Assembly (NCBI RefSeq): GCF_900110275.1 | Contig: NZ_FODC01000001.1 | Span: 434,001 to 498,000 of the forward strand | Origin: Duganella sp. CF517 | GTDB lineage: Bacteria; Pseudomonadota; Gammaproteobacteria; Burkholderiales; Burkholderiaceae_D | Direction: 5' to 3' | DNA: 64,000 bases | Part shown: in pieces, positions 28,098 to 36,315 of the stretch | How positions within the stretch are numbered: position 1 is the stretch's first letter | Layout of the letters: every line of letters begins with the position of its first letter | The notes under the pieces: generated by a model | Told to the model about the DNA's origin: nothing | Databases searched by the model: none | What the model saw: the letters and a program-made list of their open reading frames with translations, nothing else | Translations under genes and position numbers: made by a program

Positions 28098-29228
28098 ATG
28101 AACATCATGAACTTCCGCACGCTGCACCGCCTTCTCGCCCTGCCTTTGGCGCTGTGCCTGACGCTGACCGCGACGGTGCCGGCCCACGCCGCGCAAGTGC
28201 TGCGCAACCTGGTCGCCGTCGAGGGCATGCGCGACAATCCGCTGGTCGGCTACGGCCTGGTGGTGGGCCTGAACGGCAGCGGCGACTCGACCCAGGTCAA
28301 GTTCGCCAGCCAGTCGGTCATCAACATGCTCAAGCAGTTCGGCGTCAAGGTGCCCGACGGCACCGACGCCAAGTCGAAAAACGTCGCCACCGTGATGGTG
28401 TCGGCGGTGTTCCCGCCCGGCTACCGCAAGGGCCAGAACATCGACGTCGTGGTGTCGTCGATGGGCGACGCCAAAAGCCTGCGCGGCGGCGCCCTGCTGC
28501 TGACCCCGCTGCGCGCGGCCGACAACGAAGTCTACGCGCTGGCCCAGGGCAACGTGGTGGTCGGCGGCTTCAGCGCCCAGGGCAAGAGCGGCTCGTCGGT
28601 CACGGTCAACACCCCGACCTCCGGCCGCATCCCGAGCGGCGCGGCGATCGAGCGCGAGATCGCCACCGACTTCGCCACCAAGCCGAGCGTGCGCCTGTCG
28701 CTGCGCCACCCGCACTTCCAGACCGCCATTAACATTGTCGATTCGATCAACAAGCGCTTCGGCGACATCGCCACCGCCAGCGACGCCACCAGCGTCGACG
28801 TCGTCGCCCCGGCCAACCCGACCCAGCGCATCGCCTTCATGGCCAGGCTCGAGGCGCTGTCGATCGACGTCGGCGACGATTCGCCCAAGGTGGTGTTCAA
28901 TTCGCGCACCGGCACCGTGGTCATCGCCGAGGGCCTGCGCGTGCGCGCCGCCGCCGTCACCCACGGCTCGCTCAAGGTGGTGATCTCCGAGAGCACCAAG
29001 GTCAGCCAGCCGAACGCCCTGGCCGCCGGCAACACCGTGGCCACGCCGCAATCGCAGGTCAGCGTCGACCAGGGTTCGGGCCAGATGTTCAACTGGCCGG
29101 CCGGCGCCAAGCTGCAAGGCATCATCGACGTCATCAACAGCCTCGGCGCCTCGCCCGACGACATCATGGCGATCCTGCAGGCGCTCGACCACGCCGGCGC
29201 CATCGAAGGCGAACTGGTCGTTATTTAA
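28098..29228 (+). CDS. flgI: Flagellar P-ring protein FlgI (LfgI)
   Basis: A 376-residue periplasmic protein forming the P ring around the rod. It has a cleavable signal peptide (about residues 1-32, ending PAHA). The mature start is [21 protein letters not shown], followed by [20 protein letters not shown], the FlgI signature. The C-terminus ([19 protein letters not shown]) is conserved. The ATG at 28107 is an alternative start. Confidence 0.97.
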
Positions 29229-33203: not shown

Positions 33204-35435
33204 CTACCGCACCCTCGGCAGGCCGGCGCGCGCCAGCGCGCTGAACGCCTCGGCCGGCATCGGCTGCGCGTACACATAGCCCTGCGCGAAGTCGCAGCCG
33301 GCCAAGTCCAGCAAATTGCTCTGCGCCACCGTCTCGACGCCCTCGGCCACCACCCGCAGCCCCAGCTTGTGGGCCATCAGGATCAACGCCTCGCACATCG
33401 CCAGGTCGCCGCTGTCGTTGGCCAGGTGCTGGATGAAGCTGTGGTCGAGCTTGAGCAGGTCGATGCCGAAATGCTTGAGGTGGGCCAGCGACGAATAGCC
33501 GGTGCCGAAGTTGTCCAGCGCCACCTGCAACCCCATCTCGCGCAACTCGCGCAGGCGGTCGCCGACCTGGGCGGCGCCGTCGAGCAGCACGCCCTCGGTG
33601 ATCTCGATGATCAGGCTGCGCGGCGACAGGCCCAGCCCGGTCGCATAGTCGAGCCAGCCCGCATACAGCGTCGTGTCGCCGCGGAACTGCGCGGTCGACT
33701 GGTTGATGCCCACCTGGAAGCCCGAGCCGAGCTCGTCTTGCCAATGCCGGGCCTGCCTGGCCGCCTGGCGGAACACCCAGTCGCCGATCTCCATCATCAG
33801 CCCGCCCGATTCGGCGAACGGCAGGAACTCGGCGGGCGCCAGCAGGCCGCGGCGCGGATGGCGCCAGCGCAGCAGCGCCTCGGCCCGCTCGATCTGGCCG
33901 CTGCGCAGGTTGACGATGGGCTGGTAGTGCAGCTCGAACTGCTGGCCCGACAGCGCCGAGCGCAAGTCGATGGTGACCTGCTGGCGCGCCTGCGCCGCCT
34001 GTTGCAGTTCCGGCGTGAAATAGCTGTAGCGGTTGCGCCCGCCCTGCTTGGCCGCGTACATGGCCTGGTCGGCGTTGCGCAGCAAGGCCTCGGGGGAATT
34101 GGCGTCGGCCGGGAACACCGAGATGCCGATGCTGGCCGACACCGACGGATGGGCCACGCCCAAGGTGAAGGGCCGGTGCAGCCGGGCCAGGATGGTCTGC
34201 GTGATGCGCTCGATGGCGCTGATCTGCTCGAGCCCGGTGAGGATGACGGTGAACTCGTCGCCGCCCAGGCGCGCCACCGTGTCGGAGGTGCGCACGCAGG
34301 CGCCGATGCGCCGCGCGGCCTCGACCAGCAGGACGTCGCCCTGGTCGTGGCCGAGCGTGTCGTTGACCAGCTTGAAGCCGTCGAGGTCGATGAACAGCAG
34401 CCCCAGCAGCACGCCCTCGCGGCGCGCCTTCTTGACCTCCTGCTCCAGCCGGTCCTGGAACATATGGCGGTTGGGCAGGGAGGTCAGGCTGTCGAAGTTG
34501 GCCTGCTGCCAGATCAGTTCGGTCGAGGCGCGGGTGGCCGTGATGTCGCTCACCAGCGCCAGCGCGCCCAGGTAGCCGCCGTCGCCGTCGAAGATGGGAT
34601 TGGTCGCCAGCGTCACCCACAGCTCGGCGCGGTCCTTGCGCACGAACTTGAACTCGTGGCGCTCGGCCACGCCGCGCTGGCGCCGCGCGATGTTGCGCTC
34701 GAGGATGGCGCGGCCCTCGTCGTCCATGAACGCCACCAGCGGCTGGTCGAGCATCTCCTCGATGGTGTAGCCGAGCATCTGCGCCATCTTCGGGTTGACG
34801 AAGCTGGTGCGGGCGCTGGCGTCGATTTCCCAGATGCCCTCCTCGGCGCAATGGACGATGCGGCGGAAGCGCTCCTCGCTGCGTTCGAGCGCGGCGGTCT
34901 TGCCCTCGGCCAGCTCGACCATCACCCGCAGCGCCTGGCCGCTGGCGTCGGCGCTGGCGCGCAGGGTGACCGGGAAGCCCTGCTGGTTACGCCCGCGCAC
35001 CATCTGCAGGTCGCACTGCTCCGGCTGCGCGCTGTTGAGGGCGTGCCGCACGAAGCTGTCGAAGTCCTCGTGGAAGCGCGGCGCGACGAACTGGCGGAAC
35101 GATGTGGGGTCGGGCTTGCCGCGCGACAAACCCAGCAGATCGGCGCCGACCACGTTCATCTGCAGGATGGCGGTGTCGAAGCCGAGCACGAAGTAGCCGA
35201 CCGGCGCCAGCAGATAGATATCGTTGAAATAGGACGTTTCGGCGACGGCCTTGCCGGTCTCGGCGGCGTCGGCGGCCGGCACGGCGGCCTCGCCGATGGT
35301 CGCCATCATGGCCTCGTACGGCGCCAGGGCCGCCGCCTCGGCGACGACGGCCAGGCCGGCCAGCCCGTCGAGCCGCTCCTCGGTGATCGGCTGCCTGCGG
35401 CCGGGCGCCTCGGTACTGGACGTTTGCTTCTCCAT
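33204..35435 (-). CDS. PAS-GGDEF-EAL c-di-GMP signalling protein
   Basis: A 743-residue, soluble-looking protein. Two PAS-like regions (about residues 70-180 and 185-305) are followed by GGDEF (about 308-475) and EAL (about 485-740). The cyclase motif GGDEF (391-395) and the inhibitory RxxD site (RTSD, 382-385) are intact. The EAL motif is intact (EALLRW, 519-524), as are LIIEITE and VVAEGVET. However, the metal-binding DDFGTG motif reads DNFGTG (Asn642), so phosphodiesterase activity is uncertain. AAGGGAGG precedes the ATG. It may connect c-di-GMP level to the flagellum next to it, but it is convergent with the flagellar operon, so this is only proximity. Confidence 0.9.
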   Translation of the reverse strand: MEKQTSSTEAPGRRQPITEERLDGLAGLAVVAEAAALAPYEAMMATIGEAAVPAADAAETGKAVAETSYFNDIYLLAPVGYFVLGFDTAILQMNVVGADLLGLSRGKPDPTSFRQFVAPRFHEDFDSFVRHALNSAQPEQCDLQMVRGRNQQGFPVTLRASADASGQALRVMVELAEGKTAALERSEERFRRIVHCAEEGIWEIDASARTSFVNPKMAQMLGYTIEEMLDQPLVAFMDDEGRAILERNIARRQRGVAERHEFKFVRKDRAELWVTLATNPIFDGDGGYLGALALVSDITATRASTELIWQQANFDSLTSLPNRHMFQDRLEQEVKKARREGVLLGLLFIDLDGFKLVNDTLGHDQGDVLLVEAARRIGACVRTSDTVARLGGDEFTVILTGLEQISAIERITQTILARLHRPFTLGVAHPSVSASIGISVFPADANSPEALLRNADQAMYAAKQGGRNRYSYFTPELQQAAQARQQVTIDLRSALSGQQFELHYQPIVNLRSGQIERAEALLRWRHPRRGLLAPAEFLPFAESGGLMMEIGDWVFRQAARQARHWQDELGSGFQVGINQSTAQFRGDTTLYAGWLDYATGLGLSPRSLIIEITEGVLLDGAAQVGDRLRELREMGLQVALDNFGTGYSSLAHLKHFGIDLLKLDHSFIQHLANDSGDLAMCEALILMAHKLGLRVVAEGVETVAQSNLLDLAGCDFAQGYVYAQPMPAEAFSALARAGLPRVR

Positions 35436-35462
35436 ACCCTCCCTTTGCGTAACCCCACCCCC

Positions 35463-35580
35463 GGGGTCAGTGCCGACATTCGGACACGGACTCGTGCATC
35501 AATGGCGAACCCGGCCCGGAGCGTCGGTGTCGCCATGCGGACATCGGCGGAGCTCGTGTCCGAATGTCGGCACTGACCCC
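35463..35580. repeat. REP-like 118-bp imperfect palindrome
   Basis: Two perfect 26-bp inverted arms (35463-35488 and 35555-35580) begin and end with GGGGTCAG/CTGACCCC. A nested inverted repeat (ATGGCGA at 35502-35508 with TCGCCAT at 35530-35536) lies in the central part. Outside the arms a weaker pairing continues (TAACCCC at about 35450 with GGGGTTA at about 35592). It sits between the 5' end of the GGDEF-EAL gene and the 3' end of the ABC permease gene. The shape is that of a REP/BIME or miniature mobile element; no transposase is nearby. Confidence 0.8.
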
Positions 35581-35640
35581 GCTGGGGGTATGGGGTTAGA
35601 CTAGCATTTACGGATGGCGATGTCGAGAAAACACGGGAAG

Positions 35641-36315
35641 TTAGCGATGTGCACGGTTCAAACGTTGTTCCGCGCGTCGTTGCAACGCCTCAAACAACAG
35701 GCTCAGCGCCCAGTAGATCAGCGCGGCGGCCAGGTACAGCGGCAGCGGCCGGAATGTCGTGGCGATCACTTCCTTGGTCGAGAGCATCAACTCGGTCATG
35801 GTGATGACCGAGACCAGCGAGGTGTCCTTGATCAGGCTGATCAAGGTGTTGCTCATTGCCGGCACGGCGATCCTCAGCGCCTGCGGCAAGACCACGTGGC
35901 GCAACGTGCTCCAGTAGCCGAGCCCGAGGCTGTAGCTGGCCGCCCACTGCCCGGTGCTGACGGCGCCGATGGCGCCGCGCAGGCTCTCGGAGAGGAACGC
36001 GCCCGAATTCAGACTCAGCGCCAGGATGCCGGCCGTCACCGGCGTGAATTCGATGCCGACGCTGGGCAGGCCGTAATAGATGACGAACATCTGCACCAGC
36101 AGCGGCGTGCCGCGCATCAGGCTGACGTAGACGGCGGCCGGCCAGCGCAGCACGCGGTAAGGCAGGATGCGCATCACCGCCACCGGGAAGCCGATCAGCA
36201 GTCCGCCCAGCATCGACGCCAGCGCGAACACCACCGTGTAGCCGGCGCCGCGCAGCATGACGGGCGCCGCCTCGGTCAGCAGCGCCCGCAAATCCAGCAG
36301 CCCCTGCCAGTCCAT
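35641..36315 (-). CDS. Amino-acid ABC transporter permease
   Basis: A 224-residue inner-membrane permease of the polar amino-acid (HisM/GlnP/TcyL) type. About five transmembrane helices are visible. The N-terminal GAGYTVVFALASMLGG and SLMRGTPLLVQMFVIYYGLP, and the EAA loop (SLGLGYWSTLRHVVLPQALRIAVPAM) are diagnostic. It ends with a basic tail. It is 2 bp from the upstream binding-protein gene, with which it must form a transporter; the ATPase gene is not adjacent. Cystine is the likeliest substrate class because of the partner's sequence, but this is inference. Confidence 0.9.
   Translation of the reverse strand: MDWQGLLDLRALLTEAAPVMLRGAGYTVVFALASMLGGLLIGFPVAVMRILPYRVLRWPAAVYVSLMRGTPLLVQMFVIYYGLPSVGIEFTPVTAGILALSLNSGAFLSESLRGAIGAVSTGQWAASYSLGLGYWSTLRHVVLPQALRIAVPAMSNTLISLIKDTSLVSVITMTELMLSTKEVIATTFRPLPLYLAAALIYWALSLLFEALQRRAEQRLNRAHR

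Follow-up and report, generated by a model that had tools for sequence, protein, structure and literature searches.

The palindromic element analysed here very probably is a non-autonomous, REPIN-like inverted pair of GGGGTCA-core-ACACG arms, and RAYT1, a transposase of the same genome, probably mobilises it in trans. This assignment draws on sequence comparison: the copy number of the arm, its presence on both sides of RAYT1 and the empty orthologous sites together argue for a REPIN-like miniature element, probably moved by that enzyme. The element lies in a window of 64,000 nucleotides from Duganella sp. CF517, and its features are collected in Table 1.

Table 1. Positions of the element, its parts and the neighbouring features in the window.
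Feature	Position	Strand	Basis or remark
Left arm: GGGGTCA head, core GTGCCGACATTCGG, ACACG	35463..35488	+	Sequence, genome-wide repeats
Right arm: perfect inverted copy of left arm	35555..35580	-	Sequence, genome-wide repeats
66-bp spacer with nested 7-bp palindrome (35502-35508 / 35530-35536)	35489..35554		Sequence, folds
Probably the decayed right arm left by an older pair with a core of a different family	35495..35519	-	Alignment with G022 and G015
Outer C-rich tract, left	35450..35462		Alignments; flank generally A/C-rich, without element-specific pairing
Outer G-rich tract, right	35581..35597		Sequence, alignments
Downstream GGDEF-EAL gene	33204..35435	-	Start codon 27 bp from left arm; name read from translation
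Upstream amino-acid ABC-type permease gene	35641..36315	-	Stop 60 bp from right arm; name read from translation
Promoter-like motif TCGACA-N17-TAGTCT of the GGDEF-EAL gene, outside the element	35598..35626	-	Orthologous loci

The element and its copies in the genome

The element is intergenic, as the first-pass annotation had it, and stands between two minus-strand genes. The perfect 26-bp terminal arms described there are likewise real: they are identical in inverted orientation and each begins with GGGGTCAG. When extended to 39 nt (35455-35493 and 35550-35588), the arms are 87% complementary. A nested palindrome and a weaker outer pairing had also been described, and both are present, but an outer stem specific to the element is not supported. 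When the outer 10 nt of the two sides were compared in 37 elements, they matched at a mean of 4.43 positions for sides of one element and 4.30 for sides of different elements (shuffle maximum 5.14), the flanks being merely A/C-rich. The left C-rich tract is missing from the empty allele and was therefore probably inserted together with the pair.

Folding of positions 35450-35600 gave a very stable hairpin, at -60.1 kcal/mol for single-stranded DNA (z -10.05), -104.5 kcal/mol for plus-strand RNA (z -10.11) and -103.3 kcal/mol for minus-strand RNA (z -9.26), with 0 of 200 shuffled sequences equally stable in each case. No Rfam family matched the element near its curated threshold, the best being mir-5881 (16.5 and 16.3 bits against a cut-off of 87), and a plasmid collection searched with the element gave no match.

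The suggestion that the element occurs in many copies proved correct. In its own genome (G000; 7.06 Mb in 30 contigs searched), the arm pattern GGGGTCAGnnnCGACATTCGGACnC was matched 106 times forward and 111 times in reverse with up to 3 mismatches, 217 matches in all, and the reversed control pattern 0 times. By itself, the GGGGTCAG octamer shows no enrichment in the window, with 3 occurrences against 2.06 expected. An isolated octamer away from the element, at 28500-28507 on the minus strand, is within chance expectation.

Reading about 45 sites among the first 100 places listed, we distinguished three variant classes. Class A, to which the pair in the window belongs, has the core GTGCCGACATTCGG with ACAC; its arms are arranged as pairs or arrays, and their spacing varies. 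Class B has the same core, or one of GGTCC type, and ends in ACAA or ACAT; among the matches listed, 15 of its pairs are spaced 68-69 nt apart. Class C has the core AGTCTGACATTCGG, or close variants of it, with ACAC. The cores of all three classes fold into hairpins, that of class A being bulged. Arrays with duplicated spacers occur at three loci (L150, L151 and L152). At a further locus (L149, G000:C9:28854-29197) three tandem class B pairs recur together with their flanks, at distances of 119 and 131 nt.

The copies thus have the form of REPINs, namely inverted doublets with a spacer, present many times and in intergenic positions. By flanking gene orientation, as determined with a crude custom gene caller, 42 copy sites were classified as tandem (21), convergent (16), divergent (2) or undetermined (3), and convergent sites outnumber divergent ones (P 0.0013, assuming a 1:1 expectation). 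The distance to the arm is 3-24 bp for 35 of the 55 gene 3' ends that face an element; 6 run into the arm, and 14 are further away. The window copy is atypical in its placement, lying 27 bp from a start codon.

Transposases and the cores that flank them

The Y1_Tnp profile (PF01797) identified four places in the genome, and the search for a RAYT gene thereby led to RAYT1, a 291-residue protein (C15:852079-852951) bracketed by the same arm as in the window. A B-like arm lies 84 bp upstream of its gene and two A arms lie at the 3' end, one of which overlaps the gene and encodes the last residues. RAYT2 (C13, 286 residues) has C arms on both sides, and the other two places gave no match to the A arm at up to 5 substitutions. 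Beside the third Y1_Tnp gene (L147, G000:C13:283885) we noted GGGGACAG motifs upstream at approximately 1424-1480, which likewise match GGGGWSAS, and a similar CTGTCCC downstream at 2305-2320. Arms that run over the end of a transposase gene and code for its last residues (...CPNVGTDPE and similar) were seen at L145:2380-2455, L166, L167, L173, L176 and L177.

RAYT1 scores 48.5 bits against Y1_Tnp (cut-off 23). For the NCBIfam REP-associated transposase family (cut-off 80), RAYT1 is below the threshold at 72.4 and RAYT2 above it at 82.7. C-terminal helix-turn-helix matches are under the cut-off in both, with PF13613 at 20.9 bits against 27 in RAYT1 and several such families in RAYT2. His 60, His 62 and Tyr 119 are conserved in at least 95% of 53 homologues. 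No PDB chain matched the RAYT1 sequence at E <= 0.01.

Relatives of RAYT1 were found at E <= 1e-30 in 45 of 72 genomes (75 matches in total), and flanks were studied at 53 transposase loci, including 3 of other families. The arms have a common frame of GGGGTCA, a 14-nt core and ACA. Arms of the fixed-length form GGGG[AT][CG]A...ACA stand on both sides of the gene at 35 of the 53 loci and on at least one side at 43. The remaining 10 loci have no arm of this exact form; at two of them (G018, G024) the contig breaks off within the locus, and two others (G005_a, G076) have a related GGGGTCAG repeat of another form. At the 35 two-armed loci, taking the arm nearest to the gene where there were several, the upstream and downstream cores differ by 0.34 letters on average and by 2 at most, against a mean of 5.10 when cores are shuffled between loci (lowest of 10,000 shuffles, 3.63). 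Distance between transposases tracks distance between cores (Mantel r 0.39, 0 of 10,000 permutations), a correlation that still includes shared ancestry.

Genomes hold mainly the cores that belong to their own transposases. Judged by eye, 85 of the 87 GGGGTCA-N14-ACA arms in G039 fall into core families that flank its own two transposases, as do 73 of the 74 in G013, which has three; 10 of those 73 are a divergent variant. G043 and G022 are similar among the matches listed, save for isolated arms. In G005, both transposases lack standard arms and there are only 7 GGGGTCA-N14-ACA matches. Across 24 genomes, the number of NNNNYGACATTCGG-type arms goes with the flank core (P 3.6e-5, flanking arms being included in the counts): 14 genomes with a fitting flank core have 10-174 such arms each, and 10 with other flank cores have 0-6, except for a single genome with 36, in which the core deviates by one letter. 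These 24 are the genomes with a known flank core among 44 of the same genus. G005, G018 and G024 gave no core, and the loci of G003, G016, G017, G019, G021, G027, G031, G034, G035 and G037 were outside the sample. Two genomes depart from a strict core rule. In G026, with its 14 arms, the search at E <= 1e-30 gave no relative of RAYT1. In G000, 12 arms of the CCATTGCT family persist, and a cognate transposase was not found in that genome; this family has 36 arms in G022, 101 in G042 and 140 in G015.

When the 29 distinct upstream cores were folded with ACAC under RNA parameters, 6 were unstructured and 5 had a 2-bp stem only, so that hairpin recognition is probably not general. These 11 cores, together with the GGGGTCA head in place of GT[AG]G, make it highly improbable that the element is a canonical REP or BIME whose RAYT reads a hairpin and a tetranucleotide guide as in E. 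coli, despite the bulged hairpin of the A core, the intergenic inverted pairs and arrays and the transposase gene flanked by arms. Where the first-pass annotation had offered a BIME or a RAYT-mobilised miniature element, the bracketing of RAYT1 by the arm upholds the second description, and the head argues against the first.

History and setting of the window site

None of the 25 orthologous spacers in which the permease and GGDEF-EAL genes are adjacent contains GGGGTCA, TGACCCC or GGGGWSAS, whereas the window has the motif. Two loci from Rugamonas (L065, L066) and one from Oxalobacteraceae bacterium AB_14 (L098) lack approximately 140 bp of window sequence at CCCTTTGC^GTA. Among a further 10 genomes, which may overlap in organism with the 25-locus set, 7 could be aligned at the site and three (G012, G033 and G020) could not be anchored. 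The orthologous site is empty in four of the seven (G004, G014, G025 and G029). G042 has the same element as the window. In G022 and G015, the outer and inner flanks are homologous to those of the window and the pair there is shorter, with a different core (GGCCCTCCATTGCT, GGTCCACCATTGCT). A recent private insertion was rejected, given that the element is shared with G042 and that another core family occupies the site in G022 and G015. The outcome that the first-pass annotation had named as contrary to it, a unique element conserved as a promoter or terminator in relatives, was not seen, as the element is repeated genome-wide and most of the related genomes examined lack it at this site.

The simplest reading would be one old insertion in the common ancestor of G000, G042, G022 and G015. 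The family of the pair would have switched later in the line of G000 and G042, and a decayed right arm would remain from the earlier pair. The window copy thus looks layered, an older pair having apparently been overwritten by another family. Gene conversion, instead of transposition, could have produced so clean an exchange of the core at this locus. A wider form of this idea, in which the copies now spread and change through homologous recombination and gene conversion among repeats and the transposases are no longer active, would account for the arrays with duplicated spacers, for the differing left cores of orthologous pairs with homologous flanks, and for arms that persist where a cognate transposase was not found. 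We consider it very unlikely, as it leaves unexplained both the pairs at unrelated intergenic sites and the match between a genome's arms and its transposase flanks. The slots orthologous to L164 (G022) and L159 (G015), L275 and L296, hold a different palindrome of the GGCGGATTA...TAATCCGCC type, and unrelated repeats therefore seem to share gaps. Compared with G015, L157 is an apparently empty site, read by eye from a poor automatic alignment.

A motif TCGACA-N17/18-TA[GAT][TG][CA]T occurs upstream of the GGDEF-EAL orthologue at 24 of the 25 loci and in the window, in 17 cases with TAGTCT; its conservation is partly due to common ancestry. A strict sigma-70 scan of the window does not report TCGACA-N17-TAGTCT. 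If the motif is a promoter, the transcript would begin at the edge of the element, near 35590 on the minus strand, and the element would be its leader, to which it would probably add a hairpin. The predicted leader (35425-35592, minus strand) folds at -98.9 kcal/mol; its first bases, CAUACCCCC, can pair with GGGAGGGUAUG, and in one fold this pairing covers the ribosome-binding region and the start codon. The position of the element between a conserved promoter-like motif and a start codon, and this predicted leader, would suit a local terminator or attenuator selected at the GGDEF-EAL gene. Such an origin appears the most improbable of those considered: the hairpin is missing at the same place in all 25 orthologous spacers, the same arm is repeated across the genome, and the element has neither a T tract nor a terminator-like site, the sole one found being outside it at 35698-35712.

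Relation to known repeats and proposed mechanism

The element fits among the GGGGWSAS terminal inverted repeats (TIRs) of TIRYT transposases, by its motif and by the transposase gene that the same arm flanks. In excerpts of Di Nocera et al. 2013 (PMC3733652), TIRYT transposases are flanked by TIRs, some of which share GGGGWSAS, the families are moderately abundant, and the term "TIRtrons" is used. Excerpts of Quentin et al. 2018 (PMC6006769) place 20 of 26 TIRYT transposases in subclass 2.1, with HTH-like C-termini, and report that REP-like sequences were not found near subclass 2.1 genes. Our repeats have GGGGWSAS as GGGGTCAG in classes A and B, while class C arms read GGGGTCAA, with the last position off. 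They form an inverted repeat around an HUH/Y1 gene at RAYT1, at RAYT2 and at the two-armed loci. As far as these excerpts go, the systems are also alike in the HUH/tyrosine transposase and in the dispersal of repeats singly, in pairs and in groups; a C-terminal helix-turn-helix-like region, to which the sub-threshold matches of RAYT1 and RAYT2 point, may be a further likeness. Ours differ in the fixed frame, whose core goes with the transposase, and in forming populations like those of REPINs, with as many as hundreds of arms. The Oxalobacteraceae genera Janthinobacterium, Massilia and Herminiimonas have 0 mentions in PMC3733652.

The REPINs of Pseudomonas fluorescens SBW25, in the portions consulted of Bertels and Rainey 2011 (PMC3116915), are likewise intergenic, hairpin-forming, spaced inverted doublets of several families, each beside its own RAYT, but their arm sequence differs and many of our cores form no hairpin. 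The E. coli REP system, in excerpts of PMC8266576, shares an HUH tyrosine enzyme and an intergenic repeat, which the bulged hairpin of our A core resembles; GTAG, essential for the E. coli enzyme, is absent here. The same excerpts call the way in which RAYT-type enzymes spread their repeats an open question. Judged from titles and the openings of abstracts, none of the open-access papers listed for GGGGTCAG with palindromes and repeats is evidently on this repeat, and open-access searches found nothing joining REPIN with Duganella, or Massilia with repetitive extragenic palindromic and transposase. This kind of element is itself already known; the genus displays unusually clearly one transposase per repeat family.

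In the mechanism that we propose, RAYT1 would recognise the GGGGTCA head and the 14-nt core in single-stranded DNA, would cut and join DNA via its tyrosine, and would act in trans on arm pairs that carry no gene. It may have placed such pairs beside gene 3' ends, where they would do least harm. The window site would first have received a pair of the other core family, overwritten in the line of G000 and G042, and the present copy would now fold within the GGDEF-EAL mRNA leader. More tentatively, and as a possibility somewhat short of probable, the transposases of this branch may read a bipartite address, the invariant GGGGTCA and ACA around the 14-nt core, mainly by sequence and not by a REP hairpin, each keeping its own repeat population, with pairs switching allegiance by core exchange. 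We suggest a sequence address instead of a hairpin because 11 of the 29 cores fold poorly or not at all.

Locally, the copy may have altered the mRNA leader of a c-di-GMP enzyme. The branch concerned is presumably the one near whose genes a previous survey had seen no REP-like repeats. With 29 different upstream cores among 35 transposase loci, with empty sites and with one site that holds another family in relatives, the genus makes specificity and turnover directly testable. If the bipartite address is correct, the genus would be a natural lock-and-key series of single-strand transposases, with repeat populations replacing one another at the same sites.
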